This document shows positions 21,807 to 53,842 of a stretch of DNA of 64,000 nucleotides, piece after piece. The DNA is taken from NCBI GenBank assembly GCA_020723105.1, contig DYJL01000009.1, positions 62,001 to 126,000 of the forward strand, written 5' to 3'. Origin of the DNA: Nitrospira japonica (GTDB lineage Bacteria; Nitrospirota; Thermodesulfovibrionia; UBA6902). Every line of letters starts with the position of its first letter. Position 1 is the first letter of the stretch. Position numbers and translations under genes: made by a program. The notes beneath the pieces are model-generated. The model was not told where the DNA came from. It ran no database searches and saw only the letters and a list, made by a program, of their open reading frames with translations.

Positions 21807-22226
21807 TTATTCTTTTCTGGCTTCGTAATTGAAAAAGCCAGTTGACTTTATTTTTGAGAAATCAGCTTCCGGTTTGCCTGTATATGGGTCAATAGATCCC
21901 TCTGTTGTAGTCCTGATAGGGAATTTGAATCTCTTCAGAATTCCGTTTCTGAACTTAACAGTCCACATAATGGAGTCTGTTCCTCTCATTGGAATAACAT
22001 TGGCTCCAATCGGGTTAAAATCCTGATAACCCCTTACTTCAATGGCCTGCTGCGGGCAAATCTTGACGCAGTTGTAGCACTCCCAGCACTGGTCAGGCTC
22101 CTGATTGTATGCTTTCATAAGATCTCTGTTCAGCGCCATGAGATCGTTAGGACAAATATACTGACAGGCAGTCTTGTCCTGAGCTTTACAACCGTCACAT
22201 TTTTCTGTGATTACAAAACTTGGCAT
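21807..22226 (-). CDS. aprB: Adenylylsulfate reductase beta subunit AprB
   Basis: This is the small FeS subunit (139 aa) that passes electrons to AprA. It carries two [4Fe-4S] motifs, CDGCKAQDKTACQYIC (with the AprB-specific long spacing) and CWECYNCVKICPQQAIEV, followed by the C-terminal tail that wraps around AprA. The start follows a GGAGG site. Qmo is the likely electron donor. A 200-base gap separates it from sat. Confidence 0.97.
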   Translation of the reverse strand: MPSFVITEKCDGCKAQDKTACQYICPNDLMALNRDLMKAYNQEPDQCWECYNCVKICPQQAIEVRGYQDFNPIGANVIPMRGTDSIMWTVKFRNGILKRFKFPIRTTTEGSIDPYTGKPEADFSKIKSTGFFNYEARKE

Positions 22227-22426
22227 TGTAATACCTCCTTCTTTGGTTTTTCAGCTTAAATTAAGCTATTGTTTAGCAAAGTCGGCAACTCCATCAGTTG
22301 CCTGTAAATCTATGATCAACACCCCCTTTCAATGAATATGCCTTTTAAAGAGGGCAACATATTTTATCCTTCAGCATATTCACACATCTTGATCTCGACC
22401 TTTATTGCCTTCAAAAAGACATAAAT

Positions 22427-30203: not shown

Positions 30204-31144
30204 TATTTTCTTGTTCCTCTTTTATTTTGTGCTTCAACCCAGGCCTTCATTTCACGAATGGAATCATAGGCGCTGTCATCAATCGTAACGAATTTATCTA
30301 TCATCATGTTACTGAGAATTTTTTTCCCTTTTTCATCCTGATGAGCCGTAAGCAATATGTTCTGAATCTGCTTCTTTATCTCAGGATCCAACCCACGCCG
30401 CACCACAACAGGAGGAATTCCGTAAGGAGGAGATTTCATGATAACTCTGGTCCGTGCTGTCAGGCCTGGATTCATACGATTCAGATATTCCCATATAAGA
30501 CTGTCCACAGCAGCTCCATCAACGATATGCTGAACGACAGCCTGAATGGCTTTATCATGAGAATGGGCATAGATGTAGTTTCGGAAAAATGAATCTGGCG
30601 TCTCATTCATCTTTGACAGTATATATTTAGGTACTAATGTTCCAGAATTTGACATCGGATCGGTAAAGGCAAAGGTTTTTCCGCGGAGTTCCTTAAAATT
30701 TCTTATTGGGCTATCCTTTGCGACAATAATATATGAATAATAGACCGCCTCGCCATAGGCCTGAGGCGCTGCAATAAGCTCCAAGTCAAAATCCTTATGC
30801 CCATCCACATAAGGGCCGCTGCATATAAAAGCTACATCAACATCACCGGCTTTCAGAAGATTATAGATATCTTCATAACTCTCCCTGTCAACAAAATCAA
30901 CATGACGGGCCGTCTTTTTCTCAATATAGTCCAGCAGGTTTTTATAGTAGATGAAACCTTCCTTGGGGGTAATCATGCCGCCAACTGCTATACGCATTGA
31001 ATCACTGTAGGTTAGTTTGGTTTTTCCTTCCAATTTTTCTTTATTCTCAAGGCTGATCGTTATTGACTTCTCATCCCTTTCACACCCACCGGTTATGATA
31101 AGTCCAAAAGCAATCAGTATACAGAAAATTATTCTCTTCAGCAT
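30203..31144 (-). CDS. PhnD-like periplasmic oxyanion-binding lipoprotein
   Basis: This 313-aa lipoprotein has signal peptide and lipobox IITGGC (Cys about 20). Its periplasmic-binding fold is of the phosphate/phosphite/phosphonate family (PhnD/PtxB type): RIAVGGMITPKEGFIYYKNLLDYIE, DVAFICSGPYVDG, FAFTDPMSNSGTLVPKYIL. No ABC permease or ATPase adjoins it. It precedes a sensor kinase, so a ligand-sensing partner role is likely, as known for AioX-type proteins of arsenite sensing. That parallel is inference. GGGAGGA supplies a good ribosome site. Confidence 0.85.
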   Translation of the reverse strand: MLKRIIFCILIAFGLIITGGCERDEKSITISLENKEKLEGKTKLTYSDSMRIAVGGMITPKEGFIYYKNLLDYIEKKTARHVDFVDRESYEDIYNLLKAGDVDVAFICSGPYVDGHKDFDLELIAAPQAYGEAVYYSYIIVAKDSPIRNFKELRGKTFAFTDPMSNSGTLVPKYILSKMNETPDSFFRNYIYAHSHDKAIQAVVQHIVDGAAVDSLIWEYLNRMNPGLTARTRVIMKSPPYGIPPVVVRRGLDPEIKKQIQNILLTAHQDEKGKKILSNMMIDKFVTIDDSAYDSIREMKAWVEAQNKRGTRK

Positions 31145-31976: not shown

Positions 31977-32221
31977 AATACTTTCCTCCTTTCCGTACGG
32001 CAAACAAACCGCAAAATTCCCCTTTCTTTTTTCATGCACACAGCTTCCACTTCAAATGAATCCTTTTCAGGGATTTGATAATGCAAGGACTGCGAGGCAA
32101 TATAAATCCGAGGACGATTTATTCTATCTAAAGTTAAAAAAGTTTGTCAATTACACCGTAATTTCGTGGACCTTATATTTTTGCTTCATGCAGTTAAATG
32201 ATGTTAGAATACGCAAGTTAT

Positions 32222-33574
32222 ATGAAACCAAAGATTTTGATAGTTGACGACGAGCCTGATATTTGTAAGGCCCTGGAATTCATCCTGAAAAATGATGGCT
32301 ATACCGTAACCTCTGAGAACAGTGGTGAAGCTGCTGTGGAAAGGATAAAGCGGGAGTCTTTTGATGTAATACTGACAGACCTCAAGATGGGCAGTGTTGA
32401 TGGTATGACAGTCCTGGAAAAGACCAAGGAGATAAGCCCTGATACTGCTGTTATTTTGATGACCGCTTTTGCCTCTATTGAGTCCGCCGTGGAGGCCATG
32501 AGAAGGGGCGCCACTGACTATATTGTTAAGCCTTTCCTTAATGAAGAAATAAAACTTACCATAAAAAAACTCATCGAACAAAAGAAACTGATAACAGAGA
32601 ATATAGCCCTCAAACAGCAGATAAGCCAGCGCATGATCTACAAAGAATTCGTTGCGAATTCTGAAGGTATGCTTAACATCCTGGAGACTCTTGAAAAAGT
32701 AATTCCCACAAAAAGCAATATCCTCTTATTAGGCGAAAGCGGAACCGGAAAAGGCCTTATTGCAGAACTTATTCACGGTAACAGCCAGAGGCGTGACAAA
32801 CCCTTTATCTCAATAAATTGTTCCGCCATACCCGAGGGGCTTCTTGAGTCAGAGCTTTTTGGCTATAAGAAGGGCGCATTTACAGGGGCTGTATCTGATA
32901 AATTAGGGCTGATACCTCTTGCTCATCAGGGGACCCTATTCCTGGATGAGATAGGCGATATGCCTTCCGCTCTTCAGGTAAAGCTTCTTAAGGTGTTAGA
33001 GACTGGTGAGATCCTTCCTCTCGGTGACACCAAACCCAGGATAGTGGATGTAAGAATTATCTCTGCAACCAATGCAAATATAGAGAGCAAGATTAAAGAG
33101 GGGAGGTTACGGGAAGACCTTTACTGGCGCCTGAATGTAATAGAAATCAAAATACCTTCTTTAAGAGAGAGAAAAGATGATATTGAACTGATCTCAAAAT
33201 ATTTTATTAATAAATTCTCAAAAGAACACAATAAAGATATTAAGGGCGCAGACAAAGAAGTTCTATTCCTGTTTTTAAGATATTCCTGGCCCGGCAATGT
33301 GCGGGAGCTCGGAAATGTTATAGAAAGGGCTGTTGTTCTTGCACAGGGGCCTTATATAACTATTCAGGATATTCCTGATAAATTTAAATTGAACCAGAAA
33401 GAGGCCTCAGAAGCCTCCTCTACCCTCAAAGAGTACATTAGTGATTATGAAAAAAACCTGCTTTTAAAGATGTTTGAGACGCATAAAAAAAACAAGGAAG
33501 AAACCGCAAAGGCCCTGGGTATTGACCTCGCAACACTTTACAGAAAATTTAACAAATATGGAATTGATGAATGA
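32222..33574 (+). CDS. NtrC-family sigma-54-dependent response regulator
   Basis: This activator has three domains: receiver (2-118; DDE at 9-11, phospho-acceptor in VILTDLKMG, Lys in YIVKPF); a sigma-54 AAA+ domain (about 140-365; Walker A GESGTGKG, GAFTGA loop, LFLDEIGD, and an arginine finger region); and a Fis-type HTH (410-450; KEETAKALGIDLATLYRKF). I start at MKPKILIVDD (32222) rather than 32198, because the receiver strand begins there. No kinase is adjacent. The divergent cytochrome operon has a -24/-12 promoter and an upstream inverted repeat, so it is the best candidate target. Confidence 0.93.
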   Translation: MKPKILIVDDEPDICKALEFILKNDGYTVTSENSGEAAVERIKRESFDVILTDLKMGSVDGMTVLEKTKEISPDTAVILMTAFASIESAVEAMRRGATDYIVKPFLNEEIKLTIKKLIEQKKLITENIALKQQISQRMIYKEFVANSEGMLNILETLEKVIPTKSNILLLGESGTGKGLIAELIHGNSQRRDKPFISINCSAIPEGLLESELFGYKKGAFTGAVSDKLGLIPLAHQGTLFLDEIGDMPSALQVKLLKVLETGEILPLGDTKPRIVDVRIISATNANIESKIKEGRLREDLYWRLNVIEIKIPSLRERKDDIELISKYFINKFSKEHNKDIKGADKEVLFLFLRYSWPGNVRELGNVIERAVVLAQGPYITIQDIPDKFKLNQKEASEASSTLKEYISDYEKNLLLKMFETHKKNKEETAKALGIDLATLYRKFNKYGIDE

Positions 33575-33909: not shown

Positions 33910-33985
33910 CAAGGTGCAAGGGACAAGAGACAAGCCCTGCAGCCTGTTTACTTGCCACTTACCCCTTGCACCTGTCTTACCCCTG
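33850..33985. repeat. Word-built hairpin repeat (GACAAG words)
   Basis: Quasi-tandem words such as AAGGAACAAGAGACAAG, AAGTTGCAAAGGACAAGGGGC and AAGGTGCAAGGGACAAG are answered by CTTGCCACTTACCCCTTGCACCTGTCTTACCCC. This gives an imperfect long hairpin between two convergent genes, probably also acting as terminator. Confidence 0.6.
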
Positions 33986-34840
33986 ATGGCACTTCCCGCA
34001 ATCCATCACGTTTGACGCTGTGTTTCCATTGTGACAGGCTCCGCAGAATTTGCCGTTATACATAGCGTCCATCTTCATCCTGCTTCCGCCTTTTCTCATA
34101 ACAAAAAGTTTTTTGTGGCATTCATCACATTTAAATGCAGGGCTATGAACATTATGACTGAACTTAACTGCTCCAATACCTTTATTTCTGTAAGTCAGGT
34201 CCGCACTTGGCGCAGGAGTCTTTTCATGACACTTATTACAATCGTAAGATGAGAATGCTTTTTTACCGTTATGGCAGGCACCGCAGGATTCGCCATTATA
34301 TATTTCATCCATTGTTACCTTTGTACTGCCTTTGCTCATAGAAAACATTCCTGCTGAATGACAAACACCGCATGTGTTTGATGTTGTATGTTTCTCATGA
34401 GCAAATCTTACAGATGAATTCCCCTTCCCCATAGTTATGAAACCCTCCGGCGCTGATATAACAGATTTGCCAGATTTTGTTTTCTGGGCAACCTTATATC
34501 CCTTTACCCCTGTATGACAACGTGCGCACTGGGTGTTTGAGGCAAAGGCCATCTGTCCATTATGACATGCACCGCAATATTTGCCCTTATAAAGAGAGTC
34601 CATATTAAAATCGCTCTTTTGCTGAGCCTTTAATGCAACTGCGTCAAAAAGACTGTTATGACACATCTCACATGACAGGCCCCTGTCTTCTGCATGAAGC
34701 TTGTGGCTGAAGATGACTGACTTTACAGGCTTGCTATAAATAATATCACCACCATGCGAAGCGTCAGCAAATACCGCCTCATCAAAAAAAACTAGCATTG
34801 AAATCATTAGTAATATGCCAAGAACTATTTTCTTTTTCAT
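33977..34840 (-). CDS. Nine-haem periplasmic cytochrome c built of three c7-type repeats
   Basis: This 287-aa exported protein (signal peptide 1-25) has nine CXXCH motifs: CEMCH, CGACH, CARCH, CGVCH, CGACH, CNKCH, CDECH, CGACH, CGKCH. They fall in three tandem units of ~80-90 aa with the same plan: F(S/A)H..H, CXXCH, MD..Y.G..CGACHNG, CXXCH. Each unit resembles a three-haem cytochrome c7 domain with distal histidines ahead of it. As the last gene after NrfD and the FeS protein it is the likely periplasmic electron acceptor or donor of that quinone-linked module. Confidence 0.9.
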   Translation of the reverse strand: MKKKIVLGILLMISMLVFFDEAVFADASHGGDIIYSKPVKSVIFSHKLHAEDRGLSCEMCHNSLFDAVALKAQQKSDFNMDSLYKGKYCGACHNGQMAFASNTQCARCHTGVKGYKVAQKTKSGKSVISAPEGFITMGKGNSSVRFAHEKHTTSNTCGVCHSAGMFSMSKGSTKVTMDEIYNGESCGACHNGKKAFSSYDCNKCHEKTPAPSADLTYRNKGIGAVKFSHNVHSPAFKCDECHKKLFVMRKGGSRMKMDAMYNGKFCGACHNGNTASNVMDCGKCHQG

Positions 34841-34852
34841 GATCCGCTCTCC

Positions 34853-35608
34853 TCATCCTTTCATATAAAATACATTTGGTTTTGCGCCAACCTCGGGCCG
34901 AAGTACCCATACAGGCTTTTCAATCTGGTGCACGAGCTTGTAAACTTCACTGTCCGGGTTTGAAAGATCGCCAAAGTTGCGCGCGCCTGTCGGACATGCA
35001 GCCGTACAGGCAGTAAGCTTCTCTCCCTTTGAGAGACGGGTATCAATGCAAAAGTTGCATTTATCAATGGAATGTTTTTCTTCATTGAAATATCTTGCAT
35101 TGTAGGGACAGGCCATTACGCAGACCTTGCAGCCAATACATTTATCATAATTCATCATAACGATTCCATGCTGCTTGTCTTTATAAGTCGCCTTTACAGG
35201 GCAGGCCCTTACACAAGGAGGATTATTGCACTGGTTGCACAGTACAGGGATGAACTCCCTCTTTTGCCCTATGGCATCAGGGACATCACGTTGCAGTATT
35301 GCTGTGCGATAGCCGTATTCAGGGACATCGTTTGTAATAATACAAGCCTCCAGGCACCTCTCGCAGTCAATGCACAGGTTCTGCCTGATTACCATACTAT
35401 AATGAGGCTTATAAGGATATTTCTCAGCCACTTCCTCTGTGGATGCAAATACCTTGTTAATATTTGAGATAGCTGACAGAATTGTTCCTCCGGCAAAGAC
35501 GCCTGTTATTACAAGTCCAATTCTGAGAAACTCTCTGCGCTCAATTATCGAGAGAGAGTTTGATTTTTCTTCTTTTAAATCATCAGGATTAAATTTGCCG
35601 TGTTTCAC
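34853..35608 (-). CDS. Tat-exported four-cluster ferredoxin subunit (NrfC/HybA/DsrO-like)
   Basis: This 251-aa protein has a twin-arginine-like leader IERREFLRIGLVITGV followed by a hydrophobic stretch, so it faces the periplasm. Four [4Fe-4S] motifs are present: CIDCERCLEAC, CNQCNNPPCVRACP, CIGCKVCVMACP and CNFCIDTR...CTAACP. It should wire electrons between the NrfD membrane subunit and the nine-haem cytochrome. The gene lies 12 bases upstream of the cytochrome gene and 72 bases after NrfD. Confidence 0.92.
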   Translation of the reverse strand: MKHGKFNPDDLKEEKSNSLSIIERREFLRIGLVITGVFAGGTILSAISNINKVFASTEEVAEKYPYKPHYSMVIRQNLCIDCERCLEACIITNDVPEYGYRTAILQRDVPDAIGQKREFIPVLCNQCNNPPCVRACPVKATYKDKQHGIVMMNYDKCIGCKVCVMACPYNARYFNEEKHSIDKCNFCIDTRLSKGEKLTACTAACPTGARNFGDLSNPDSEVYKLVHQIEKPVWVLRPEVGAKPNVFYMKG

Positions 35609-35680
35609 TTTCTTACCTCCATGTTTTATTCAGAAACTTGATCTTTCCCTACCCGCTACCCGCTATACGCTGCACGCTAA

Positions 35681-36931
35681 TCAGTGTATCTCGCTCTTAT
35701 GCCCTTTAAAAACTCTCTCTCCAAGAAGAAAACTTGTTGCTACAACACCCATACCCCCAAGTACAACCATAATTTCATAAAAGGAAGGAGTGTACTTATG
35801 TAATGAAGAATATTCATTAACTCCGAGATCATGATACAAAGGCACAATCTGCCCTACTACAACGAGGTCATATCTCATAATAAAGATTCCTATTATCATA
35901 AGGAGCGAAGCCGTAAACATCATGTTGATATTCTTTCCCTTTGAACGCAGCAGCAAGATGAACGGTATTACCATGCCTATCAATACCTCAAAGAGCCAGA
36001 AGTTAAGCGAATAAGGCCCCGCAAGCATGGCCTTGATGGCTTCAACTTTTCCAGAAGCTGCAACAAGACCGGTAATTATCTTCCATGTTGCAAAAAACAT
36101 AATTACTGTCAGCAAAAGGGTGCACAATTTCCCAACGGCTTCCAGGGAGCGCTCCATTGGTTTATCCATCATTTCATTATTAACCTTATATCCGAGATAT
36201 GTGAAAAATATGATCGCCGCGCATCCCGAGGCCATTGCCGAGGCAATAAAATAAATCGGCATATAAGGGCCATACCAATACTCTCTGCCGTGAAGCATGC
36301 CAAAGATAGCACCCAGATTGCTGTGTGCTGCAATTCCGGAGATCAATCCTAACAGCCCTGAATACATTGCATATTTATGACTGCCTATCAGCAGGAATAT
36401 AAACTCAACAATCATAAAAAACATGTACGCTCCATAAAGCGTGCCCATCCACCAGATATTCGAGGTAAGATTCGGCGAGATTGCATTATAGATAGCCATT
36501 CTGAAAGGGTTTTCTATATCAAGAAAGATGACTGTAAAGCCTGCCATTATTGTAACTACTGCGAGGAAGACGGTTCGTTTGGCAATCGGCATGAAATCTT
36601 TAATGCCAAACACATGACCTATAGATGATACTATGCAAAGCCCTGTGGAAGTTACCACAAAAAATATATAGGTCGAGATTAATATCCCCCACGCCACCTC
36701 ACGGGTCACTCCGTAGGCATGGCGATATCCCATGTTAATTGCATTTGCACTTGACATCGCAGATATAAAGACCATGATTCCGCTTATTATAAGAAGCACA
36801 TAAAATGATTTGCTTCCAGACAGGAATTCCATGAGATTTGAATACCATGTTGTTGCTACAGAAGAATCAAATGAACGTGTAACATCTTTAACTATTTCCG
36901 ATACCTTTACAGGTTTGACATCCTCAGGCAT
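35681..36931 (-). CDS. NrfD/PsrC-family quinone-reactive membrane subunit
   Basis: This 416-aa integral protein has about ten hydrophobic helices and shows the NrfD-family plan (EFLSGSKSFYVLLIISGIMV, IENPFRMAIYNAISPNLTSNIWWMG). It would oxidise or reduce menaquinol and pass electrons to the FeS subunit. There is no molybdoenzyme in this operon, so the NrfD-FeS-cytochrome set resembles the quinol:cytochrome modules of DsrOPJ, Qrc or Nrf complexes rather than a complete reductase. Confidence 0.92.
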   Translation of the reverse strand: MPEDVKPVKVSEIVKDVTRSFDSSVATTWYSNLMEFLSGSKSFYVLLIISGIMVFISAMSSANAINMGYRHAYGVTREVAWGILISTYIFFVVTSTGLCIVSSIGHVFGIKDFMPIAKRTVFLAVVTIMAGFTVIFLDIENPFRMAIYNAISPNLTSNIWWMGTLYGAYMFFMIVEFIFLLIGSHKYAMYSGLLGLISGIAAHSNLGAIFGMLHGREYWYGPYMPIYFIASAMASGCAAIIFFTYLGYKVNNEMMDKPMERSLEAVGKLCTLLLTVIMFFATWKIITGLVAASGKVEAIKAMLAGPYSLNFWLFEVLIGMVIPFILLLRSKGKNINMMFTASLLMIIGIFIMRYDLVVVGQIVPLYHDLGVNEYSSLHKYTPSFYEIMVVLGGMGVVATSFLLGERVFKGHKSEIH

Positions 36932-38326: not shown

Positions 38327-39220
38327 TTAATATACAAATTGTTCGGGGCTCTTATATGAATGACATTGGGAGCATAGGGTCTTGGCAGCAGCCTTTCCAA
38401 CAATCCATGAATGGGCTTTATGACAGTCAATGCAATTCAGGCCTTTTTTCATATGGAATCCATGCTGTCCTACAGATGTTTCATTTCTGTGGCACTCGCT
38501 TAGGCATGTATCAGGTGTTGGTTTTATTTCTCCGTGCGGCTTGTGGCATTGGTGGCAAAGCAGTTCTGCCATAGGCCCTGCCTGAGGAATGGCAGGATGA
38601 CATTTTATACATCTGTCTTTAGGAACCATGGAAGGCGTCTTTTCTGAAAAAAAATGGCATTTGAGACAGGAGAAAGCCTCCATGCCAAGTCCGTGCACGC
38701 CTTTATCCTGATGGCACTCCTGACACGCATTTCCATTGGGATGAAAATTATGCAGTGCATCTTTATGACAGGTCTTGCAGTCAATCCTTTGTATAAATAC
38801 ATGCTTTGCATGCCCATAGGATTTATTCAGTGTTAAAGACCCCTGAATTGATTCATTCATATGACACTGCTTGCAGGAAATCCAGGGTTTTTCTCTTCCG
38901 TGAGTTTGAGAAAATTTCTTGCTATTGCCGCTTATAACAAATGTTGCAAGAAGCTGGTTCTGCTCCAGGATGCTCAATTGATGACACTTCTGACAGATTA
39001 CGCTTTTGTGTCTGCCGTCATACCATTGTGTGAAAGCCTCTTTCATCAAATGACATGACATGCAGAATTGCGGGTCCTCCTGGGTATGCCTGTAGTACTT
39101 AAGCCCTACAACAACACCCAGTACAGCAATAACGATTATTAAGACAAGGGCCATGCCCTTCAAATATTCCAGAGCCCTGCCTATCAGCTCTACAAACCTG
39201 CTGTAAAGATTCATCTGCAC
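38327..39220 (-). CDS. Membrane-anchored 11-haem NapC/NirT-like cytochrome c
   Basis: This 297-aa protein has one N-terminal TM anchor (about 20-42) followed by a periplasmic domain with ten CXXCH motifs (CMSCH, CQKCH, CKQCH, CKTCH, CQECH, CLKCH, CIKCH, CHQCH, CIDCH, CSQCH). It also has one CX3CH (CLSECH), eleven potential haems. The first part matches NapC/NirT quinol dehydrogenases (EDPQFCMSCHLMKEAFTQW). The extra C-terminal haems suggest a fused electron wire. It could carry electrons from menaquinol to the periplasm for an arsenate reductase or for extracellular acceptors (inference). Confidence 0.9.
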   Translation of the reverse strand: MQMNLYSRFVELIGRALEYLKGMALVLIIVIAVLGVVVGLKYYRHTQEDPQFCMSCHLMKEAFTQWYDGRHKSVICQKCHQLSILEQNQLLATFVISGNSKKFSQTHGREKPWISCKQCHMNESIQGSLTLNKSYGHAKHVFIQRIDCKTCHKDALHNFHPNGNACQECHQDKGVHGLGMEAFSCLKCHFFSEKTPSMVPKDRCIKCHPAIPQAGPMAELLCHQCHKPHGEIKPTPDTCLSECHRNETSVGQHGFHMKKGLNCIDCHKAHSWIVGKAAAKTLCSQCHSYKSPEQFVY

Positions 39221-42623: not shown

Positions 42624-44528
42624 TTATATATTCTTGGACAAATGTATACCTGCCATTTTCAGCCGTTCAAGCCCCTTTATCTCGTCCTGCAGCATAGGAA
42701 ACTGGAGCACAGGGAGGTTGAATTTATTCTGTATCGCCTCTAAATACTGCATCTGCATCTGTCTCCTGTTTCTGAAAAAGTCATTAACGCATACCTCTTC
42801 TGGCAGGACCATATTCGCAACCACAAGCTGTGTCTCAATGCCTGCATCTTTTAAATCAAGCATGGCCCTGTACGATTCAAGGACTGGAGTAGATTCCGGA
42901 TAAAGCACAAGGCAGAATACTGACTGCTCTGATTTGCGGAGTATATTAATGATTTTTCTGAATCTGTTTTCTGTCTCCCTTTTTGCCTTTGCACCCTCTG
43001 TTGTATCTATCATCATCTCCGCCTGTTTCGCATAATCAAAAGGAAGGTCGAGAAGCCTCAATGTATGTCCTGTCGGAGCGGTATCAAAGACAATTACATC
43101 ATAAGCGCTGCTTTCTATAAAACGAATGAATTTGTCGAATGCTGCCATCTCTTCAATACAGGGGGAATTAAGCTCCTCTTCCATAGCGGCTATCATATCT
43201 TCAGAATATTTTTCCCTCGCTTCTTCGAGAACTCTCTCTTTGTACTCAGTAAAAGCCTTCTCCTGATCAATCATCACTGCAAAAAGATTTTCTGCAATCT
43301 CTGAAGGCTCATCATCTATCTTTACATCAAATACTTCACCGATGTGCGCTGCAGGGTCTGTAGTTACAATAAGTGTTTTGAATCCCTTCTGTGCTGTATG
43401 CATTGCAGTAATGCACGATATAGTCGTCTTGCCAACCCCGCCCTTGCCGGTGAAAAAAATTGCTTTGGTCTGGTTAGCCGGAATGATTAGCTTATCGATA
43501 TCAGGCTTTTCAATATTGCCAAGATGGGTAGCACTCAAGACTCCAGCTTTTACTCTTGTCATTCCGGCTTGTCGGGAATCTTTCTTCTCAAAAAGATTCC
43601 CGACGCGCCCTGCTTGCGGGAATGACATACGATTGATGTTGTTGCGTGCTACAAACAATTTCTCCGCTACACTTTTTAACGCCTCAATCCCCTTTACTTC
43701 TCTGTCCCTTAACAACATAAACCGTTTTGGCTTGCTGATTGCCTTTTCAGTTGCTCCGAGCACCCTCTGCTGCGCTTCATATTTCTTTCTGAAAAACTCA
43801 ATATCACAGACTTCTTCAGGCAGTATTCCGTTTATGATAATCTCTCCAGATTTAATGCCGATTGTCTCAAGCTCTTTTGACGCCCTTATGGTTTCATAAA
43901 GCGAGAGTTCCTCAGGACGCATGACAAAGATGAAATCTGTACGTTCAGGATTCTTCAGAAGTGAAGTCGCACGGTCGTACTTATCTTTGGAATCCTGTAT
44001 GGACTGTACCGGGCCGAGACATGTTTGGCCGCTGCCTTTTGCGGATTCCTCTATATGTCTGGACCAGTCCACTGGAAGCTCAAGCAAGCGTATGGTGTGT
44101 CCGGTAGGCGCAGTATCAAATACAATGATGTCGTATTCATCCACTTCCATAAAATCAATAAACCTGTCAAAAGATGCCATCTCTGTTGTGCAGGGACCGC
44201 TCAGGTTTTCCTCGAGAGATGCTATCACATCATTGGGCATTATCTCTCGAAACGGGCCGATGATCCGCTCTTTGTACTCCCTTGTCGCCTCATCCGGGTC
44301 AATTTCCATGGCATGTAATTGTAGGGGTAATTCATGAATTACCCCTACAGATATCGGCATTATCCTATGCCCGATCTCCTGTTCAAATACATCTGCAAGA
44401 TTGGATGCCGGGTCGGTTGTTACAATCAATGTCTTTTTGCCTGACAACGCATGATGCAATGCCGTGGCGCATGCCATCGTGGTCTTGCCAACCCCGCCCT
44501 TGCCTGAAAAAAATATATATTTTGTCAT
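42624..44528 (-). CDS. arsA: Arsenite-transport-type ATPase ArsA (fused two-domain)
   Basis: This 634-aa protein has two homologous ATPase halves, each with a deviant Walker A (FFSGKGGVGKTT near residue 7, FFTGKGGVGKTT near 355), VTTDPASN/VTTDPAAH and VFDTAPTGHT motifs. In arsenic resistance ArsA energises an arsenite permease; no arsB or acr3 lies in the window. The gene is longer than usual (~585 aa), partly because two palindromic repeats (30 bp and 69 bp) are read through in frame, adding 10 residues in the first half and 23 in the linker. It overlaps the end of arsM by 4 bases. Confidence 0.9.
   Translation of the reverse strand: MTKYIFFSGKGGVGKTTMACATALHHALSGKKTLIVTTDPASNLADVFEQEIGHRIMPISVGVIHELPLQLHAMEIDPDEATREYKERIIGPFREIMPNDVIASLEENLSGPCTTEMASFDRFIDFMEVDEYDIIVFDTAPTGHTIRLLELPVDWSRHIEESAKGSGQTCLGPVQSIQDSKDKYDRATSLLKNPERTDFIFVMRPEELSLYETIRASKELETIGIKSGEIIINGILPEEVCDIEFFRKKYEAQQRVLGATEKAISKPKRFMLLRDREVKGIEALKSVAEKLFVARNNINRMSFPQAGRVGNLFEKKDSRQAGMTRVKAGVLSATHLGNIEKPDIDKLIIPANQTKAIFFTGKGGVGKTTISCITAMHTAQKGFKTLIVTTDPAAHIGEVFDVKIDDEPSEIAENLFAVMIDQEKAFTEYKERVLEEAREKYSEDMIAAMEEELNSPCIEEMAAFDKFIRFIESSAYDVIVFDTAPTGHTLRLLDLPFDYAKQAEMMIDTTEGAKAKRETENRFRKIINILRKSEQSVFCLVLYPESTPVLESYRAMLDLKDAGIETQLVVANMVLPEEVCVNDFFRNRRQMQMQYLEAIQNKFNLPVLQFPMLQDEIKGLERLKMAGIHLSKNI
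43558..43626. repeat. In-frame palindromic repeat in the arsA linker
   Basis: 69 bp bounded by GTCATTCC and GGGAATGAC, with inner arms CGGGAATCTTT and AAAGATTCCCG. It is 23 codons long, read as QAGRVGNLFEKKDSRQAGMT, and lies between the two ATPase halves. Confidence 0.75.
44320..44349. repeat. Perfect 30-bp palindrome inside arsA
   Basis: TGTAGGGGTAATTCATGAATTACCCCTACA is self-complementary along its full length. It is 10 codons long and in frame (VGVIHELPLQ). The second ATPase half has no matching residues at the homologous place. Confidence 0.85.
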
Positions 44529-45328
44529 TTATGTCCCTCTATACAGACACTGACTACATAGTCCTGAATAGATTCTCCCTTTTTTAAGCTACCCATTATC
44601 TTCCCTTCCACCGGATCTTCGGTATATGAATCGGTGTATAATGATAACCCTTTCCCGGATACCTTCACGTCTTTAAAACCAGCCCTCTCTACTATTTTTC
44701 TGTATTCATCAACAAGTATTGCTCCGGCAATACAGCCTACATATGCCAGAATATTTTCCAGGATCTTTTCCGGAAGTTTTTTCAAAAGAGCGATATCAGA
44801 AATTGATATCCTTCCGCCTGGTTTCAGTACCCTGTAGATCTCCTGAAAGACCCGCGGCTTGTCTGCTGAGAGATTGATCACGCAATTGCTTATGACTGCA
44901 TCAACTGAATGGTCTGCCGCCGGCAGATTCTCAATCTCGCCAAGCCTGAACTCAACATTTTTTATCGCGTTTCTTTTTGCGTTGTCCCTTGCCTTCTCTA
45001 TCATCTCAGGGGTCATATCAACACCGATAACCTTGCCTTTAGTACCGACTTTCGAAGCAGCCAGAAAACAGTCAAAGCCCGCGCCTGCGCCGAGGTCCAG
45101 CACAATTTCTCCTTTTTTCAGACCTGCCAATGCCGTAGGATTACCGCAACTTAGGGCGAGGTTTGCCTCATCCGGAATTGCCCTTAAATCTTCTTCAGAA
45201 TATCCGATCGATTTTGCATACTCCTTTGCATCAGGGCCAGAGCATGTGCCGCATCCGCACCCCTTCTGTCCCTTTGCGATTTTTCCATAAGCATCCCGGA
45301 CTATTTTTATCGTTTTAGCTCTGTTCAT
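44525..45328 (-). CDS. arsM: Arsenite S-adenosylmethionine methyltransferase
   Basis: This 267-aa class I methyltransferase has SAM motif VLDLGAGAGFDCFLAA and arsenic-binding cysteines in GCGCGTCSG, SCGNPTAL, ISNCVINLS and AYVGCIAGA. The latter two correspond to the conserved Cys pair of ArsM. It would methylate As(III) to mono-, di- and volatile trimethyl forms. It lies in a tight arsR-arsD-arsM-arsA order, overlapping arsA by 4 bases. Confidence 0.92.
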   Translation of the reverse strand: MNRAKTIKIVRDAYGKIAKGQKGCGCGTCSGPDAKEYAKSIGYSEEDLRAIPDEANLALSCGNPTALAGLKKGEIVLDLGAGAGFDCFLAASKVGTKGKVIGVDMTPEMIEKARDNAKRNAIKNVEFRLGEIENLPAADHSVDAVISNCVINLSADKPRVFQEIYRVLKPGGRISISDIALLKKLPEKILENILAYVGCIAGAILVDEYRKIVERAGFKDVKVSGKGLSLYTDSYTEDPVEGKIMGSLKKGESIQDYVVSVCIEGHK

Positions 45329-45342: not shown

Positions 45343-45684
45343 TTATTTCCTCGTCACAGATATTGGTTTCCCTTTTTTCATCGGTTCAATATTTAACACC
45401 TTGCATATCTCTTCGTAATCAGGATATGCTCCGGTCTTGAATACCTCTCCATTTATCATTGTAACCGGCAATACTTTCTTTCCACCCTTATGAAGCAATT
45501 CAGCAATTTTTTTGTTTTCAAGAAATTCCTTTGGCTGCTGCGCAAGATTAAACCTTTCAACGTCAACACCCTGTTTCTTCAATGCCAGCACGGCCTCGTT
45601 CATCTTTACAAGAACAGGGTCAATACTCGGCCCGCATAATCCCGATGAACAGCACATTGCAGGATCGTAAATTTTGATTCTCAT
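45343..45684 (-). CDS. arsD: Arsenic metallochaperone ArsD
   Basis: This 113-aa protein has the vicinal cysteines of ArsD: DPAMCCSSGLCGP (Cys 11-12 and 17). The body (KVLPVTMINGEVFKTGAYP) matches the family thioredoxin-like fold. ArsD collects arsenite and hands it to ArsA, consistent with arsA two genes downstream. It lies 14 bases upstream of arsM. Confidence 0.93.
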   Translation of the reverse strand: MRIKIYDPAMCCSSGLCGPSIDPVLVKMNEAVLALKKQGVDVERFNLAQQPKEFLENKKIAELLHKGGKKVLPVTMINGEVFKTGAYPDYEEICKVLNIEPMKKGKPISVTRK

Positions 45685-45754: not shown

Positions 45755-46099
45755 TTATTTACAGCATTTGTTCTTATTCTTCATATCCTTTAACTTTATC
45801 AGTCTTGAAAGATATACCTTTATAGTTTCGTCCGTGATCTTTTCTGTGACTGTGAGCACAAGAAACCTTCGGAATATATCTGAATCATTTATACTGTAAT
45901 GCACCCATTTGCCCTGCCGTCTATCCCTTATAAGTCCTGCTTCTTTCAGCACATTGAGATGGAATGAAATCTTGGGCTGGCTCATGTCCATAACGCTGAC
46001 GAGATCGCATACGCATATCTCGCCTTTCTGAAAGATCTTCAGCATCTTCAGTCTTGTTTCGTCTGAAAGCGCCTTAAAGACGCTTATCAATTCCTGCAT
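45755..46099 (-). CDS. arsR: ArsR-family arsenite-responsive repressor
   Basis: This 114-aa winged-helix regulator has the typical FKALSDETRLKMLKIF start and an ICVCDLVSVM metal-binding helix (the Cys-x-Cys of As(III)-sensing ArsR). The DNA-reading helix is MSQPKISFHLNVLKEAGL. A Cys pair ends the protein (NKNKCCK). It is the first gene of the ars operon, 70 bases ahead of arsD, and likely represses its own promoter in the region that also holds the MITE-like element. Confidence 0.93.
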   Translation of the reverse strand: MQELISVFKALSDETRLKMLKIFQKGEICVCDLVSVMDMSQPKISFHLNVLKEAGLIRDRRQGKWVHYSINDSDIFRRFLVLTVTEKITDETIKVYLSRLIKLKDMKNKNKCCK

Positions 46100-46500: not shown

Positions 46501-48300
46501 TTAGACCGCTCCCTTTGTTCTTTCCTGGTAAAAAGGACATTTTCTGCAGTCCTCATATTTCTGTGCAAAGGTACCCTGAACCTTTCCCTCACAAAAAGTG
46601 CCTGCGACGGCCCAGCAAATCCGCCCAAAGTTTGGATAGGCAGGGCATTTAATCGTAGCATCCTTATCTCTGCTGCAGTTCATATACTCCCAGCACTTCT
46701 TCTCCAAGGAATCTTCTTCACTCTGATAAGGGAAATACAGGCTGAAGGTGGAGCCTTTTCCTGCAACGCTTTCTGCTTTAATAAAACCGCCGTGTTCCTC
46801 TATAATTTTTCTTGTTATTGAAAGTCCAAGCCCTGTGCCATGGCCTATCTCTTTGGTGGAGTAAAACGGCTCAAAGATCAGGGGCAGTTTCTCTTCGGGT
46901 ATCCCTGGGCCTGCATCGGATACAGAAATAACAGCATATGTCACATAGTTAAGTTCTTTCCCGGTTGCGGTTACTCCCAGTACTCCTCCCTGGGGCATTG
47001 AATCAATTGCGTTTATTATAAGGTTGCCAAGTGCGAGTTTTATCTGTTCCGGATCTATCAGAACCTCCGGAAGCTCCTCCTCGATTTCCATCTTTAACTC
47101 TATAGCATGTTCATTGAGAAGGTCTTCATACATCTTCACCGTTTCCATTATAATCGGCTTCAGATGATTTCTTTTAAAACGACACCTGGCCTCCCTTGAA
47201 AAGGTCAGGACATCCCGCAGTATCTTCTCAAGCCTGTTCACCTCTGAGACTACTACCTCTGTATACTCTTTCTCTTTTGCGCCGGTAACAATTTTCTTCA
47301 ATCTGCGGGCAAAGCCGCCTATTGCAGTCAGGGGGTTTCTTATTTCGTGCGCCACATCTGCTGTAAGCCTTCCGAGCGATGCAAGTTTTTCTGCCTGAAT
47401 CATTTTCCCCTGCGACTTTTTTAATTCCTCAGTCTTTTTTTCAACTTCTTTCTCAAGTGTCTGCGCCCAGTTATGAAGCCTTTCCCTTGAGGCCTCAAGC
47501 TCTCCAGTCATCTCATTAAAAGTGCCGGCCAGATATTGCATTTCGTCTTCTGAACGGATGTACACTTTATGTTTGAGGTCGCCGCCTGCGACATTATCCA
47601 TTGCATCTGACAGTATGGATACAGGCGTTAAGACAAATTTTTTCAGAATGAAATAGAGAAGAAAAGAAGCCCCTACCAGAAACATAAAGGCATAGATGGT
47701 TATATTTACAGTTTGTCTCTGAACAATTTTATCCAGAGAGGCCAGGGAAAAGTCTGTCTCAATAATCCCTAACACCCTTTGTTCCTGAGAATGAATATGG
47801 CAGGCTGCAGTATAGCAGGGTGCTTCATTGTAGATGGGTTCAATAAATGTGAGTGTTTTATTGTCCCTGTTGCTCGCATCAATTATCCATTGTTTCTTGT
47901 CTTCCAATGCAGCTAACGGTCTTTGGGAATCTAAATGGCAACCTTTGCATGCAAAGGTGTCACGGTTTACCATTTGCCCGATTTCATGCCTTGCCGATGA
48001 ATAAAAGATTTTCCCTCTGTTGTCAAATATCCTTATTCTTTTGATGTCCTCAGAGAGGGCAATACTTTCGATTGTATGCTGTACAGCTTCCCTGTGAACG
48101 GTAAGCATACTGTAGCGTGTGCTCTTCTTTATAAAATCTGAGAACGAGGCTACATACTTAACCGCGCTGACTGTGAGGTTTTTTTCCCCTTCATCTATCA
48201 ATATATAGCATGAAATACCCCCGCCAACTACAAGCAGCATGACGATGGTGATAATCAGTTTTCTGGCTAAGGACCCTTTAATCTTTCGCGATGATATCAT
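46501..48300 (-). CDS. Haem-c-binding sensor histidine kinase with C-terminal two-CW domain
   Basis: This 599-aa membrane kinase has TM1 (about 12-30) and a periplasmic domain with CKGCH and a CX4CH motif (CYTAACH), so two haems are likely. TM2 (about 198-218), HAMP and an intact H-box ADVAHEIRNPLTAIGG follow. The HATPase has N box NLIINAIDSMPQGG and GTGLGLS. After the kinase, CWEYMNC...CPAYP...CW...C...CRKCPFY forms a Cys-rich two-CW module that may bind metal. It lies downstream of a second haem kinase and the ArrAB-like genes on the same strand, so it may sense redox or arsenic-related respiration. Confidence 0.9.
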   Translation of the reverse strand: MISSRKIKGSLARKLIITIVMLLVVGGGISCYILIDEGEKNLTVSAVKYVASFSDFIKKSTRYSMLTVHREAVQHTIESIALSEDIKRIRIFDNRGKIFYSSARHEIGQMVNRDTFACKGCHLDSQRPLAALEDKKQWIIDASNRDNKTLTFIEPIYNEAPCYTAACHIHSQEQRVLGIIETDFSLASLDKIVQRQTVNITIYAFMFLVGASFLLYFILKKFVLTPVSILSDAMDNVAGGDLKHKVYIRSEDEMQYLAGTFNEMTGELEASRERLHNWAQTLEKEVEKKTEELKKSQGKMIQAEKLASLGRLTADVAHEIRNPLTAIGGFARRLKKIVTGAKEKEYTEVVVSEVNRLEKILRDVLTFSREARCRFKRNHLKPIIMETVKMYEDLLNEHAIELKMEIEEELPEVLIDPEQIKLALGNLIINAIDSMPQGGVLGVTATGKELNYVTYAVISVSDAGPGIPEEKLPLIFEPFYSTKEIGHGTGLGLSITRKIIEEHGGFIKAESVAGKGSTFSLYFPYQSEEDSLEKKCWEYMNCSRDKDATIKCPAYPNFGRICWAVAGTFCEGKVQGTFAQKYEDCRKCPFYQERTKGAV

Positions 48301-48317: not shown

Positions 48318-50357
48318 TTAAGTTTTAAGAGGTAGTGTTACGGTAAAGGTAGTGCCCTTGCCAACTTCGCTCTCAACGGTTATGGAGCCGTTCATTTTTT
48401 TGATTATGCTGTAACTGACTGCAAGCCCCAGACCCGTGCCTTTTTCTTTGTTGGTATAGAAAGGATCAAATATCTTGGGTACGTCATCCTTGTGTATGCC
48501 AACTCCTGTATCTTCAAATTGAATGACCATGTTGTCGTCTTTTGCAAAGCTCCTTATAGTAAGCGTACCGCCTTTAGGCATGGAATCAACAGCATTAAGG
48601 GCCAGATTTATAAAAACCTGCGACAGTTGTTTGTCTTCACAAACACATGTAGTATTACATAAGGACGGGGAGAGGTCTTTTATAATAGAAATGCCCTTCG
48701 CCTTTTTATCGAAGTGAATGATATTAACTGAATGCTCGATAATTTCATTTATAAGGCACTCTTTACTCTCCCCAGTAGGCATTTTTATAAAGCCTGAAAG
48801 CTGTTTCAGGATATCAGATATCCTGTTTATATGATAATAAATAGTCTCCAGGTTTTCTTTTTTAAATTCGTCTTCTTCCGCTTCTTTCAGTATCTGCACA
48901 AAAGAGAATATAGATGTCAACGGATTGCCAATCTCATGCGCAATGCCTGCTGAAAGCCTTCCCAGTGATGCCAGTCTCTCCGAATGGATTATCTGCTCTT
49001 CCATGTTTTTCATCTCTGTTATATCCTGTATAAGCCTTATATATCCGGCCACTTCTCCATCCGGCCTTTTCACAGGAGCGTTGGTAATCTGAAAATACTT
49101 TCTCTTTTGTCCGAAGAGATCAGGCATTATTGTTGTATTCATATCTTTGGCATACGTATCAAAAATAACAGAACAATCCGCACATAAATCCTCACATGAA
49201 AGCCCTGTAACTTCACGCCCTGCCATTTCATTAATTTTTTTGTTGGACCATAGAATCTTTCCTTGCCTGTCAATAAGTATAAGTCCGCCGCCAATGGCGC
49301 TGACAATCGTATCAAGTTTTTCCTTTTCGTTTGCAAGTTCGGCTGTTCTTCTTTTGACTTTTGTTTCAAGCTCGACAGCATATTTTTCCAGCTCTTCTTT
49401 CCGTTTTGCGCTTTCTTCTGCCGTTATTCGCCGCTTGTTGAATACAATCAATAAGGCAGACACCAGAGTGGTAGTCACAAAGATGGCGATTATGAGATAA
49501 GAGTACAATTCCATGCTCTGTTTTGTGGCAAGAGTCACTTCAGAGTAGGGCGCAGATACCGCAATTATCCATGAAAGGGTGTCTATATTGGCAGAGGAAA
49601 AGGCAATAATCTTGTCCTCTCCTGATGGGGCAATATACTTTCCGTAATTACCTGCTTTTCCTTCTATAATCCGTTTTTCAAGGTCGAAACTCACATGGCA
49701 TTTGAAACAGGCCTCGTCTGCTTTATAAACATTTCCCCCAACCATTTCAGGCTGGATCGGATGATACAGGAGTGTTCCATTTTTGTTCATCATCCAGGCA
49801 TATCCCCTGGTGCCTGACTGTATATTACCCACAAAATGGCCTGCTATGTCCTCAATCCTTCTGGAGAGAAAAACTATCCCGTTAAATTTATTCTGATTAT
49901 ATACAGGCGATATGACGTAGACATCAGACAGTGTTTCTACAGTGGTAGTTCCGCGAGATTCCATCTTTTCTGCTTTAGCTAATATTTCCGGAATAACAGG
50001 TTTTAAAAATCCTTCAGTCACCTCCGAGAAAATTACCCGGCCCGTACTGTCTATTATTCCAAAAGAGGTCTTGAGGGTTTTCTTCTTCTCAAGGACATCC
50101 TTTATCAATCCATCAATACTGTCCCGATTCCTTAAATCTTTTTTTGACAGCACCTCAGAAATATGAAGTACCCCCTCTTTTATAAAAGAGAAATGTGCCT
50201 TTATATGGTCCGATATAGACTTGGAAAGCAAGAGTTGTTGTTTGTTGAACATCTCTGCCATCTCCATCTGAAGGGATTCCTGGAAGAAGACGCTAAGGGT
50301 GATAAGCGCGGAGACTATAATAATGAGGGTGACTATTATTAACAGATAGCCTTTCAT
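48318..50357 (-). CDS. Cache/haem-c sensor histidine kinase
   Basis: This 679-aa kinase has TM1 (5-25) and a long extracytoplasmic Cache-like domain containing a haem motif CFKCH near residue 225. TM2 (about 282-305), coiled coil and PAS domain (345-450) follow. The H-box AGIAHEIGNPLTSIF is intact, and the HATPase has NLALNAVDSMPKGG and GTGLGLAVS. It overlaps or nearly abuts the next kinase (18 bases) and begins after a strong terminator behind the arrB-like gene. A soluble ligand plus haem redox input is likely. Confidence 0.9.
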   Translation of the reverse strand: MKGYLLIIVTLIIIVSALITLSVFFQESLQMEMAEMFNKQQLLLSKSISDHIKAHFSFIKEGVLHISEVLSKKDLRNRDSIDGLIKDVLEKKKTLKTSFGIIDSTGRVIFSEVTEGFLKPVIPEILAKAEKMESRGTTTVETLSDVYVISPVYNQNKFNGIVFLSRRIEDIAGHFVGNIQSGTRGYAWMMNKNGTLLYHPIQPEMVGGNVYKADEACFKCHVSFDLEKRIIEGKAGNYGKYIAPSGEDKIIAFSSANIDTLSWIIAVSAPYSEVTLATKQSMELYSYLIIAIFVTTTLVSALLIVFNKRRITAEESAKRKEELEKYAVELETKVKRRTAELANEKEKLDTIVSAIGGGLILIDRQGKILWSNKKINEMAGREVTGLSCEDLCADCSVIFDTYAKDMNTTIMPDLFGQKRKYFQITNAPVKRPDGEVAGYIRLIQDITEMKNMEEQIIHSERLASLGRLSAGIAHEIGNPLTSIFSFVQILKEAEEDEFKKENLETIYYHINRISDILKQLSGFIKMPTGESKECLINEIIEHSVNIIHFDKKAKGISIIKDLSPSLCNTTCVCEDKQLSQVFINLALNAVDSMPKGGTLTIRSFAKDDNMVIQFEDTGVGIHKDDVPKIFDPFYTNKEKGTGLGLAVSYSIIKKMNGSITVESEVGKGTTFTVTLPLKT

Positions 50358-50445: not shown

Positions 50446-51243
50446 TTAAGCTTTTTTAGCTGCTGCTTTAAAGCTTCTGATGTAAAAGACATTCGGCTGT
50501 GTGCCTTTTTCACCTGACTTCAAGGTCTCGCCCTTGTTATTCTTCAGGTTAACAGCTTTATGCTTCTTAAGAGCCTGGCTTAGCTCACTGTTTGGATCGC
50601 TCTGGTCCCCGAAGATTCTTGCCTTTGCAGGGCATGCCACTACGCAATAAGGCTGTTCACCATTCATAACCCTGTGTTCGCAAAAGATGCACTTTTCTAC
50701 CTTACCCTTTTCACGTACACTTGCATAATCAGAGTGTTTGTAAAGGGTGCGGTGAGGAGGCAAATCACCAGCCTTCTTGGACACCTCAGCGCCTGAAGCA
50801 GTGCATCCCGCAATGACTTCCTTATTGTCTTTGTAGAAGGGATGTACTTCGTCTTCGAAGTCATTGAAGCTTATTACGCTGTACTGTAATCCGGATTTAT
50901 CCGCATCCTCCGTGCTGTAAGGACACGCCCTCTGGCACTGACGGCATCCGATACATCTTTCCATGTTGTGAATTGTCATACCGTTTTCGTGTTTGTGCAT
51001 AGCCTTTGGCGTTACAGGACAAGCCTTCACACATGGCGCATCTGTGCAGTGATTGCAAAGAACAGGCCTTGCTGTAAAATTTACATTGGGGAACTTGCCC
51101 TCTGTTGTCATGACAAAGTCTGCCCAGTTGAATCTCTGCCCCTTGGCCCGGTCCTGAGTATTGTTCTCAGTTTTGCATGCTATTGCACAGGCGCCACAGC
51201 CTACACATTTTTGTAAATCTATAACCATTCCATATTTTGGCAT
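50446..51243 (-). CDS. Molybdoenzyme iron-sulfur subunit (ArrB-like)
   Basis: This 265-aa ferredoxin-like subunit of the DMSO-reductase family has four [4Fe-4S] motifs: CVGCGACAIACK, CNHCTDAPCVKACP, CIGCRQCQRACP and CIFCEHRVMNG...CVVACP. The N-terminus GMVIDLQKCVGCGACAIACKTENN fits ArrB/PsrB proteins. No signal peptide; it would be exported together with its Tat-dependent partner 19 bases upstream. It carries electrons from a quinol-derived carrier into the molybdenum subunit. Its size matches ArrB (~235-265 aa); PsrB-type partners are the alternative. Confidence 0.88.
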   Translation of the reverse strand: MPKYGMVIDLQKCVGCGACAIACKTENNTQDRAKGQRFNWADFVMTTEGKFPNVNFTARPVLCNHCTDAPCVKACPVTPKAMHKHENGMTIHNMERCIGCRQCQRACPYSTEDADKSGLQYSVISFNDFEDEVHPFYKDNKEVIAGCTASGAEVSKKAGDLPPHRTLYKHSDYASVREKGKVEKCIFCEHRVMNGEQPYCVVACPAKARIFGDQSDPNSELSQALKKHKAVNLKNNKGETLKSGEKGTQPNVFYIRSFKAAAKKA

Positions 51244-51262: not shown

Positions 51263-53842
51263 TTAAACCTTTTCGATTCTTACGGCTGTAAAGCCGCCGT
51301 TTCTGCAGTTGCTGCCGGTAAAGCGTTCTGTATCAAAAGGCATAAGATCATTGTTATTGGCGCCCCTCGGCGTCTTGCCGAATTCCTTTGCGGCAACCTT
51401 ACCGTAAGCATAATGACCCTGGCCATAGCACTTTGAAACCGTGCCGGGTCTGACCCCTTCAAAAAGTTTTGCCTTTACAGTGATACTCCCTGTCACAGAG
51501 GTAAGCTTTACCATATCGCCGGTCTTGATGCCAAGTTTTTTACCGTCTTCTGGATTGATTCTTACTACATCATCCCAGCTCTCATCACCGACGTCAACCT
51601 TCTTGAATTCCTGATACCATGGGGTGTTCTGGCTTCTGCCTTCCCTGTTAAGCCTTGACTTGAAGTCAACGAGGATATATGGATATTTAACAGGATCGCC
51701 CCATACTTTCGGCGACTCGTAATGAGGTACGAACACTTCTTCGCCTTTTGCAAGGTAGCCGGCAGCCTCGACTATATCATCAATGCTGGTTTTGTGTTTT
51801 TTGGCATGATCGCCGAGGGCTTTCTTGAGGGTTTCACTATAGAATTCAAACTTAAAGGTCACTGTACCTTCTATTGTTTTCTTTCCGTCTTTTTCAACTT
51901 CCTTGCCGAATTTACCCCAGAGCTTTCTGAACTCATAACCCTCAGAGTTGTAAATTCCCTTTGCCTTAAAGTCTTCCCAGCCATTCAGCTTATCGCCTTT
52001 TAGCGGCTTTTCAGGCTTCCAGACAGGCGCGCTTATGATTTTTGTGGCAATCAGAGCAAAATCTTCCGCATTAGTTGGCATATTGCCTGTTTCCGGATCT
52101 TTGAATGAGTTGTAGTAATTAACCATGTTAGGAAATCCCTTGGCATTCAGCTTTTCAGCAAGCATATACATAATCTCAGTCTCGTCAGCCTTCTCTTCCC
52201 ATAACCTTCCTACTACCGGCTGCTGAATAGAAAGATGGGTATGCAAGTTGCCTTTGTTGCTGACACAGGTCAGTTTCTGTGTTGCATGATGTGCTGCTGG
52301 TAAGACGATATCAGCAAACATAGCTGCCTCAGATGGATTGGTTCCAATGTGAATATAGAAAACCTTTTTCATTGCCTTATCCCATCTGTCAGCGCCGGTA
52401 CATGAAAAATTAAAGTTGGCCCAGTAGCTCATACAAACCTTAATATCATAAGGATCTTCATTAAGGACGGCGGTGGCAACATTGTTTGTGATAACAGAAC
52501 TGCCAGCTTTTCCTTCTGATATCGCAGGGAAAGCCTTTGTGCCTCTCTGGTCTATTTTTTTCTCTTTGCTATATTTCTTTGCTGTTTCATCGAGAAACTC
52601 ATCAATTGCAGGAACTTTTCCTGAAGGAGACTTTGCATGATTTCTTAATGAACCGCCCTCATTCTCGCAGGAACCTAAAAGGCCGTTAAGGGCATGAATC
52701 GCAAATGAGGCATAAGCGCCCCTCGGACTCATAACAGGGCCCGGGCCCATCCACACAGCAACTTTAGGGGCTGCCTTGCCCATAGTTTTTGCTATTCTGA
52801 TAATCTGGTCTTTAGAAATACCGCAAATCTTTTCGGCCCATTCAGGCGTCCGGTCCTTAAGTTCGATGTTCCACCATTTGACAAGTCCATGAGTATGGAT
52901 TTCAGCAAATGCCGCCTCGTCAACGGACTTGCCGGAAACAAACTGGTTCTTGCCATCCTTGAAGTCGCCTACAAACTCTTTGCTCCACATCCCTTCAGTG
53001 AGAATGACGTGGGCGATTGCGGTTGCGAGGGCGCCGTCTTCTCCGGGCTTTACAGGAACCCATTCATGGGATTTTGCCGCTATGGCGCTGAGCCTTGGAT
53101 CTACAGTAATGACTGTGCCATTATCAATAACATCACCGATTTTATTGATTGTATTAGGAACATTTCTGTTGGAACTTAATGGATCGCAGCCCCATACAAC
53201 AAGGCATTTGGTGTTAGCAAGGTCATAATCCCTGTAACCCCAGAAACCTTCAGTATAAAAAGGACCAAACTTTTCGGCTTCAGCGCATATGGCGCTATGT
53301 GAAATAGAATTTGGCGAGCCCAGTATCTTGGGCAGGGTTCCGTAAGCAAGAACCTCTGTCTTATCAGAATACCTTCCTCTTATAAACAGAAACTTATGCG
53401 GTTCATTATTTTTTCTGAGTTCAAGGAGCTTGTCTGCAACCGTATCCAAAGCTTCATCCCATGTAATGGGGACAAATTTGGGATCAACACCTCTTCCCTT
53501 CTCAGTGTTGGTCCTCTTCATCGGAACTTTGACTCTGTCCGGATCATAGAGTTCCTGTAATATTATGTGTCCTCTCGGACATACATACCCGTTGTTGACT
53601 TTGGACAACTGATTGCCCCTTACCTTGACCGCCCTGCCGTTCTGCACAAAAAATTCAGCCGGACACCACTGCGTGCACCCCTGACATGTTGACGGTATCC
53701 ACTTGCCGGCTTCGGTACCGCCGCTTCCGGTCTTATGGTCTTTGCCATTTGCAAAAGCATTCAGCACTATACCGCCATTCATTGCAAGGGCTACGCCCGT
53801 AGCTACACTTGCCTTCAGAAAATCCCTTCTTTTAATTTCCAT
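51263..53842 (-). CDS. arrA: Tat-exported molybdopterin oxidoreductase, probable respiratory arsenate reductase ArrA
   Basis: This 859-aa catalytic subunit has a Tat leader (IKRRDFLKASVATGVALAM), one [4Fe-4S] motif (CQGCTQWC...CPRG) and the molybdopterin domains of the DMSO-reductase family. Near residue 160 it has RGRYS, and then HSAICAEAEKFGPFYTEG. As I recall, Arg-Tyr, His-Ser, Cys (Mo ligand), Lys and the Tyr in WGYRDY correspond to active-site residues of Shewanella ArrA; ArxA instead carries GRGWG. Length also matches ArrA. The gene precedes arrB-like and lies near ars genes. Related thiosulfate, polysulfide or tetrathionate reductases remain possible. Confidence 0.65.
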   Translation of the reverse strand: MEIKRRDFLKASVATGVALAMNGGIVLNAFANGKDHKTGSGGTEAGKWIPSTCQGCTQWCPAEFFVQNGRAVKVRGNQLSKVNNGYVCPRGHIILQELYDPDRVKVPMKRTNTEKGRGVDPKFVPITWDEALDTVADKLLELRKNNEPHKFLFIRGRYSDKTEVLAYGTLPKILGSPNSISHSAICAEAEKFGPFYTEGFWGYRDYDLANTKCLVVWGCDPLSSNRNVPNTINKIGDVIDNGTVITVDPRLSAIAAKSHEWVPVKPGEDGALATAIAHVILTEGMWSKEFVGDFKDGKNQFVSGKSVDEAAFAEIHTHGLVKWWNIELKDRTPEWAEKICGISKDQIIRIAKTMGKAAPKVAVWMGPGPVMSPRGAYASFAIHALNGLLGSCENEGGSLRNHAKSPSGKVPAIDEFLDETAKKYSKEKKIDQRGTKAFPAISEGKAGSSVITNNVATAVLNEDPYDIKVCMSYWANFNFSCTGADRWDKAMKKVFYIHIGTNPSEAAMFADIVLPAAHHATQKLTCVSNKGNLHTHLSIQQPVVGRLWEEKADETEIMYMLAEKLNAKGFPNMVNYYNSFKDPETGNMPTNAEDFALIATKIISAPVWKPEKPLKGDKLNGWEDFKAKGIYNSEGYEFRKLWGKFGKEVEKDGKKTIEGTVTFKFEFYSETLKKALGDHAKKHKTSIDDIVEAAGYLAKGEEVFVPHYESPKVWGDPVKYPYILVDFKSRLNREGRSQNTPWYQEFKKVDVGDESWDDVVRINPEDGKKLGIKTGDMVKLTSVTGSITVKAKLFEGVRPGTVSKCYGQGHYAYGKVAAKEFGKTPRGANNNDLMPFDTERFTGSNCRNGGFTAVRIEKV

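Follow-up and report, generated by a model that had tools for sequence, protein, structure and literature searches.

The gene at positions 51263-53842 (minus strand) of the window, the whole 64,000-nucleotide stretch of DNA analysed here, is predicted to encode the molybdopterin subunit of a respiratory arsenate reductase, and its translated product, complete in length, falls in the ArrA clade and has ArrA-type active-site residues. It is very probable that this subunit and the neighbouring ArrB form a periplasmic ArrAB enzyme, which would draw electrons from the quinone pool by way of a separate quinol dehydrogenase of the cytochrome type and reduce arsenate to arsenite as an alternative acceptor to sulfate. 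The arrA reading frame occupies exactly these positions, starts with ATG, is free of frameshifts and specifies 859 amino acids. The motifs named for ArrA are a Tat signal, a C-x2-C-x3-C-x27-C sequence and a cysteine Mo ligand (PMC2500031), and all of them are present: the Tat signal lies at the start of the protein, the 4Fe-4S motif spans residues 53-88, and Cys186 is the ligand. A domain search additionally identified the Pfam Fe4S4, molybdopterin and molydopterin-binding domains. The active-site residues named in a first-pass annotation of this DNA were each located, RGRYS at residues 155-159, H-S-x-x-C (as H-S-A-I-C) at 182-186, Lys at 191 and WGY at 201-203. In the alignment each is identical to its counterpart in Shewanella ArrA (chain 6cz7), where we take them to have individual roles in arsenate binding. 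Their presence is informative since ArxA differs: the ArrA rows carry RGRY[ST], HSxxCAE, Lys and GY, all of which occur in the window protein, whereas the ArxA rows carry YGRGW and HxSMC.

Among solved structures, 6cz7 is the best relative of the protein (937.6 bits, 52% identity); the runner-up, at 163.8 bits, is 2vpw, a polysulfide reductase from Thermus. The homology is not a matter of chance, because the match to 6cz7 is full-length and has this score. The AlphaFold model (mean pLDDT 77) was compared with solved structures by Foldseek, and 6cz7 was again first, with a TM score of 0.88 and an E-value of 2.8e-95, the next match having an E-value of 5.7e-40. A maximum-likelihood tree of 46 rows was then computed under LG+C20 PMSF, covering ArrA, ArxA and PsrA types. 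In this tree the window protein and Shewanella ArrA are grouped at 100/100 support, while ArxA is the outside neighbour of the ArrA clade and the PsrA types lie further out, both on starred branches. The AU test rejected the joining of the protein and its close kin to ArxA (p = 4.65e-5) and to the PsrA types (p = 1.55e-6). The phylogenetic check had been set beforehand, and its outcome was placement in the ArrA clade, with TtrA compared by profile only. The G+C content of the gene (45.7%, against 43.4% for the window) is unremarkable, and recent transfer into the contig was not adopted on base composition.

A polysulfide, thiosulfate or tetrathionate reductase would suit the sulfur metabolism of the host, which possesses sulfate-reduction genes, and PsrA, PhsA and TtrA share with ArrA the common Mo-bisPGD superfamily with its Cys ligand. 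The probability of such a function is nevertheless negligible. The active-site loops are not shared, the protein does not place with PsrA-type enzymes in the tree or the AU test, and its NCBIfam score is 1078.5 bits for ArrA in comparison with 276.9 for PhsA and 79.6 for TtrA, the last being compared by profile only. Furthermore, the Foldseek gap amounts to 55 orders of magnitude, and no psrC or ttrC follows arrAB.

ArrA-type enzymes may be reversible, and sequence alone leaves the direction unproven. ArxA and ArrA form sister clades, and the former can work in both directions (PMC7327174), so that an enzyme acting chiefly in the reverse direction, as an arsenite oxidase of the ArxA type, has to be weighed. 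The ArxA locus of the Cereibacter ORIO and Sulfuricella plasmids encodes a PhnD-like sensor of related type together with a kinase and a regulator. This is nonetheless very improbable for the window protein, which fails to place in the ArxA clade and lacks the YGRGW-type loop. The plasmid ArxA sequences are only 31-33% identical to it and fall outside its clade, and the joining of the two was rejected as described above. ArxA loci differ further in the extra iron-sulfur protein arxB' and the NrfD-type arxC, neither of which lies beside the window arrA. Among 80 related loci, only 1 has an NrfD of the arxC type near arrA. The sulfate-reduction genes of the host lineage also speak against this assignment.

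The arsenate reductase reading has to be reconciled with the curated cut-off of the NCBIfam ArrA equivalog NF041714, 1600 bits, which is not reached by the protein. It should be noted that this cut-off was exceeded by no match in 76 Geobacter-family, 399 Bacillota-phylum and 296 Nitrospirota genomes, 25 of the last having an ArrA-type match. Since no sampled match passes, the cut-off is of no use here for telling ArrA from other proteins; it appears to suit a narrow group and was not taken as a defining property of ArrA.

The ArrB-like partner expected from the first-pass annotation is encoded at 50446-51243 (minus strand), beginning 19 bp past arrA in the adjacent A-B order of ArrA loci. This tetracubane iron-sulfur subunit of 265 aa has NF041715 as its best match (249.7 bits) and contains four 4-Cys motifs for 4Fe-4S clusters. 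The genes continue on one strand in the order arrA, arrB, two kinases, a gap of about 400 bp, arsR, arsD, arsM and arsA. The pair of sensor histidine kinases directly after arrB is co-directional with arrAB and carries CxxCH-type motifs in the sensor part: the first (48318-50357, minus strand) has dCache and PAS domains and one CxxCH motif, and the second (46501-48300, minus strand) has a CxxCH and a CxxxxCH motif. Their earlier description as haem kinases holds as far as these one or two motifs each are concerned, but not for a tie to arsenic or for conservation near arrA, as no clear orthologues were found beside arrA in relatives.

Beyond the gap, all on the minus strand, are an arsR-type metalloregulator (45755-46099, from profile and domain matches), the arsenite metallochaperone gene arsD (45343-45684, above the NF033727 cut-off), an arsM-type arsenite methyltransferase (44525-45328, above that of NF008823) and an arsA-type ATPase of two tandem halves (42624-44528), whose partner pump was not found in the genome. 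Family searches of the genome recovered neither Acr3 nor ArsP. Its only ArsB-profile match, on contig C36, is a CitMHS-type transporter (CitMHS 308.7 bits versus ArsB 80.4). Consequently, the four genes of the ars set are present as had been claimed, but the set is not complete, for want of Acr3, ArsP or a convincing ArsB. The arsenite produced by ArrAB might be handled by these products, through binding by ArsD, methylation by ArsM, or export. The broader idea of an arsenic-cycling unit with methylation and haem kinases is upheld in part only: it retains its co-directional neighbours, but loses strength from the missing efflux pump and from the rarity of the arsDMA grouping, each of arsA, arsD and arsM occurring in 1/80 of the related arrA loci.

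A module of the ArrX type is present at a distance from these genes. The periplasmic oxyanion sensor at 30203-31144 (minus strand), of the phosphonate-binding type, has ArrX 6x6b, the sensor through which arr operons respond to arsenate, as its best solved relative (193.6 bits, compared with 147.1 for AioX and 68.3 for PtxB). Seven residues are listed for the AioX pocket (PMC5908839), and all seven are kept in the sensor according to the alignment, as expected of an ArrX-class protein. Directly after this arrX-like gene lies a histidine kinase (28362-30203, minus strand), putatively in the arrS role, and facing the sensor gene is a sigma-54-dependent NtrC-type response regulator (32198-33574, plus strand), putatively in the arrR role. 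The sensor gene does not adjoin arrA but is located about 20 kb from it. A search for a sigma-54 promoter upstream of arrA gave no match, and matches across the window were fewer than expected by chance. Because of this distance and the lack of a sigma-54 site upstream of arrA, we infer rather than observe that the ArrX-type module would control arrAB. In several Nitrospirota (L052, L056, L067, L070, L099, L041) two periplasmic binding domains are fused in tandem in the ArrX-like sensor; the first resembles ArrX, and the second, tested in L041 only, resembles PtxB.

The neighbourhoods of 80 related arrA loci, 59 of them of at least 12 kb, were compared. The relatives, found among groundwater Nitrospirae MAGs (PMC6730927), Geobacteraceae, Desulfobacterales and Betaproteobacteria, share the arrAB order and are 58-87% identical to the window protein, a range that excludes the 2019 sequences of PMC6730927 themselves. 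A TorD gene is near arrAB in 71 of the 80 loci; in the larger ones an arrX-class gene (19/59) or acr3 (17/59) is often nearby, and at least one of arrX, acr3, arsA, arsD and arsM was found in 34/59. The window differs from these relatives in that two kinases and arsRDMA come after its arrAB, in the place of TorD, an Fe-S protein, FmdE and MoeA. A subclade of ArrA, mostly from Nitrospirota hosts (L066, L069, L070, L073, L099, L128, L129), carries Asn where the window protein has Lys191, and several of its members nonetheless have arrX, a kinase and a regulator beside arrA.

These neighbourhoods also bear on whether an ArrA-clade enzyme might serve another physiological oxyanion, for example antimonate or thioarsenate. 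Antimony-specific respiratory reductases, AnrA and SbrA, have been described (PMC13284237), the reference AnrA being outside the rows of our tree. This alternative is improbable here, since the ArrA active-site residues are kept, an ArrX-class sensor is encoded in the window, the same 34 larger related loci have acr3, arrX or arsDMA near arrA, and the ArrA family has been described without another identified physiological function (PMC10100899). The original identification as a probable respiratory arsenate reductase is therefore supported by the grouping with Shewanella ArrA, the AU tests, the active-site residues, ArrB, the neighbourhoods of relatives and the ArrX-type sensor.

For arsenate reduction by ArrAB, a route for electrons has to be proposed, as neither ArrC nor another NrfD adjoins arrAB in the window. 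ArrC-type anchors are likewise missing from all but 1 of the 80 related loci. Many known arr operons lack ArrC, and in Shewanella the cytochrome CymA takes its role (PMC2500031). Two candidates are encoded on the minus strand of the window. The first is a NapC/NrfH-type multihaem cytochrome c with about 11 haem motifs (38327-39220), a possible CymA-like quinol dehydrogenase. The second is a cluster of a multihaem cytochrome c7, a Tat iron-sulfur protein and an NrfD-type membrane protein (33977-36931), which might provide a link to the quinone pool. This cluster has no catalytic subunit alongside and resembles a quinol-cytochrome exchange module. Electrons would pass from the quinone pool through either of them to ArrAB, in place of the missing ArrC, and ArrAB would then reduce arsenate to arsenite in the cell. 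No TorD gene lies beside arrAB in the window; the TorD genes of the genome are confined to contig C86, one being within a paralogous arr locus, and TorD from that locus may mature the window ArrA. In summary of its likeness to known enzymes, the system resembles ArrA of Shewanella sp. ANA-3 (6cz7) in fold, cofactor motifs, active-site residues, the ArrB partner and the lack of ArrC, and is unlike it in the level of identity, the unmet equivalog cut-off, a host with sulfate-reducing genes and the absence of an adjacent TorD.

The host assembly belongs to Nitrospirota, and its completeness is put at 100% and its contamination at 0.86%. Outside the arr system, the window contains qmoCBA, aprA, aprB and sat at 14890-23626 (minus strand), assigned from profiles and gene order. 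For sat, aprA, aprB and qmoC the profile scores lie above or among the curated cut-offs, and qmoA and qmoB were assigned from HdrA-like homology and gene order. On contig C80, dsrA passes its cut-off and its neighbour is dsrB-like; DsrD after dsrB is not claimed, its profile score being 19.0 against a cut-off of 24.2. With sat-aprBA-qmoABC located in the window and dsrAB on another contig, sulfate reduction and arsenate respiration both appear to be encoded, in agreement with the sulfate-reducing lineage assigned by the first-pass annotation. Sulfate-reducing Nitrospirota occur in groundwater. If they indeed respire arsenate, these bacteria can mobilise arsenic, and their sulfide can also trap or thiolate it. 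In 2019, putative arrA was reported from Nitrospirae, in three groundwater MAGs and in eleven published genomes, the nearest sequences being from Deltaproteobacteria (PMC6730927). The window arrAB is a well-supported further example in Nitrospirota, with a richer context, and is not a new kind of system. The presence on one contig of sat-apr-qmo, a sensor of the ArrX type and genes for methylation and for handling arsenite strengthens the arsenate-respiration proposal of that study and makes it testable.

The more unusual item is the diverged second ArrA-type operon of the genome, which lies outside the window on contig C86 (L038:7101-12382). Its ArrA2 is 45% identical to the window ArrA and belongs to a long-branched clade within ArrA (100/100 in the 46-row tree), found so far in Nitrospirota relatives only. 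In the operons of this clade the gene of a secreted tetrahaem cytochrome is joined by arrA2 and arrB2, and most of them continue with TorD and an Fe-S protein. Six genomes of the order retain the cytochrome-arrA2 arrangement. In most members Asn replaces the substrate-loop Lys that follows the Mo-ligand Cys. A division of substrates, in which the window ArrAB would use arsenate and the arrA2 clade a different oxyanion, with one TorD shared by both, is a tentative and rather unlikely suggestion. Several proteins of the arrA2 clade are about 1000 aa in length (L044, L045, L046, L047), and that of L045 has an insert of about 80 residues after ArrA position 144.
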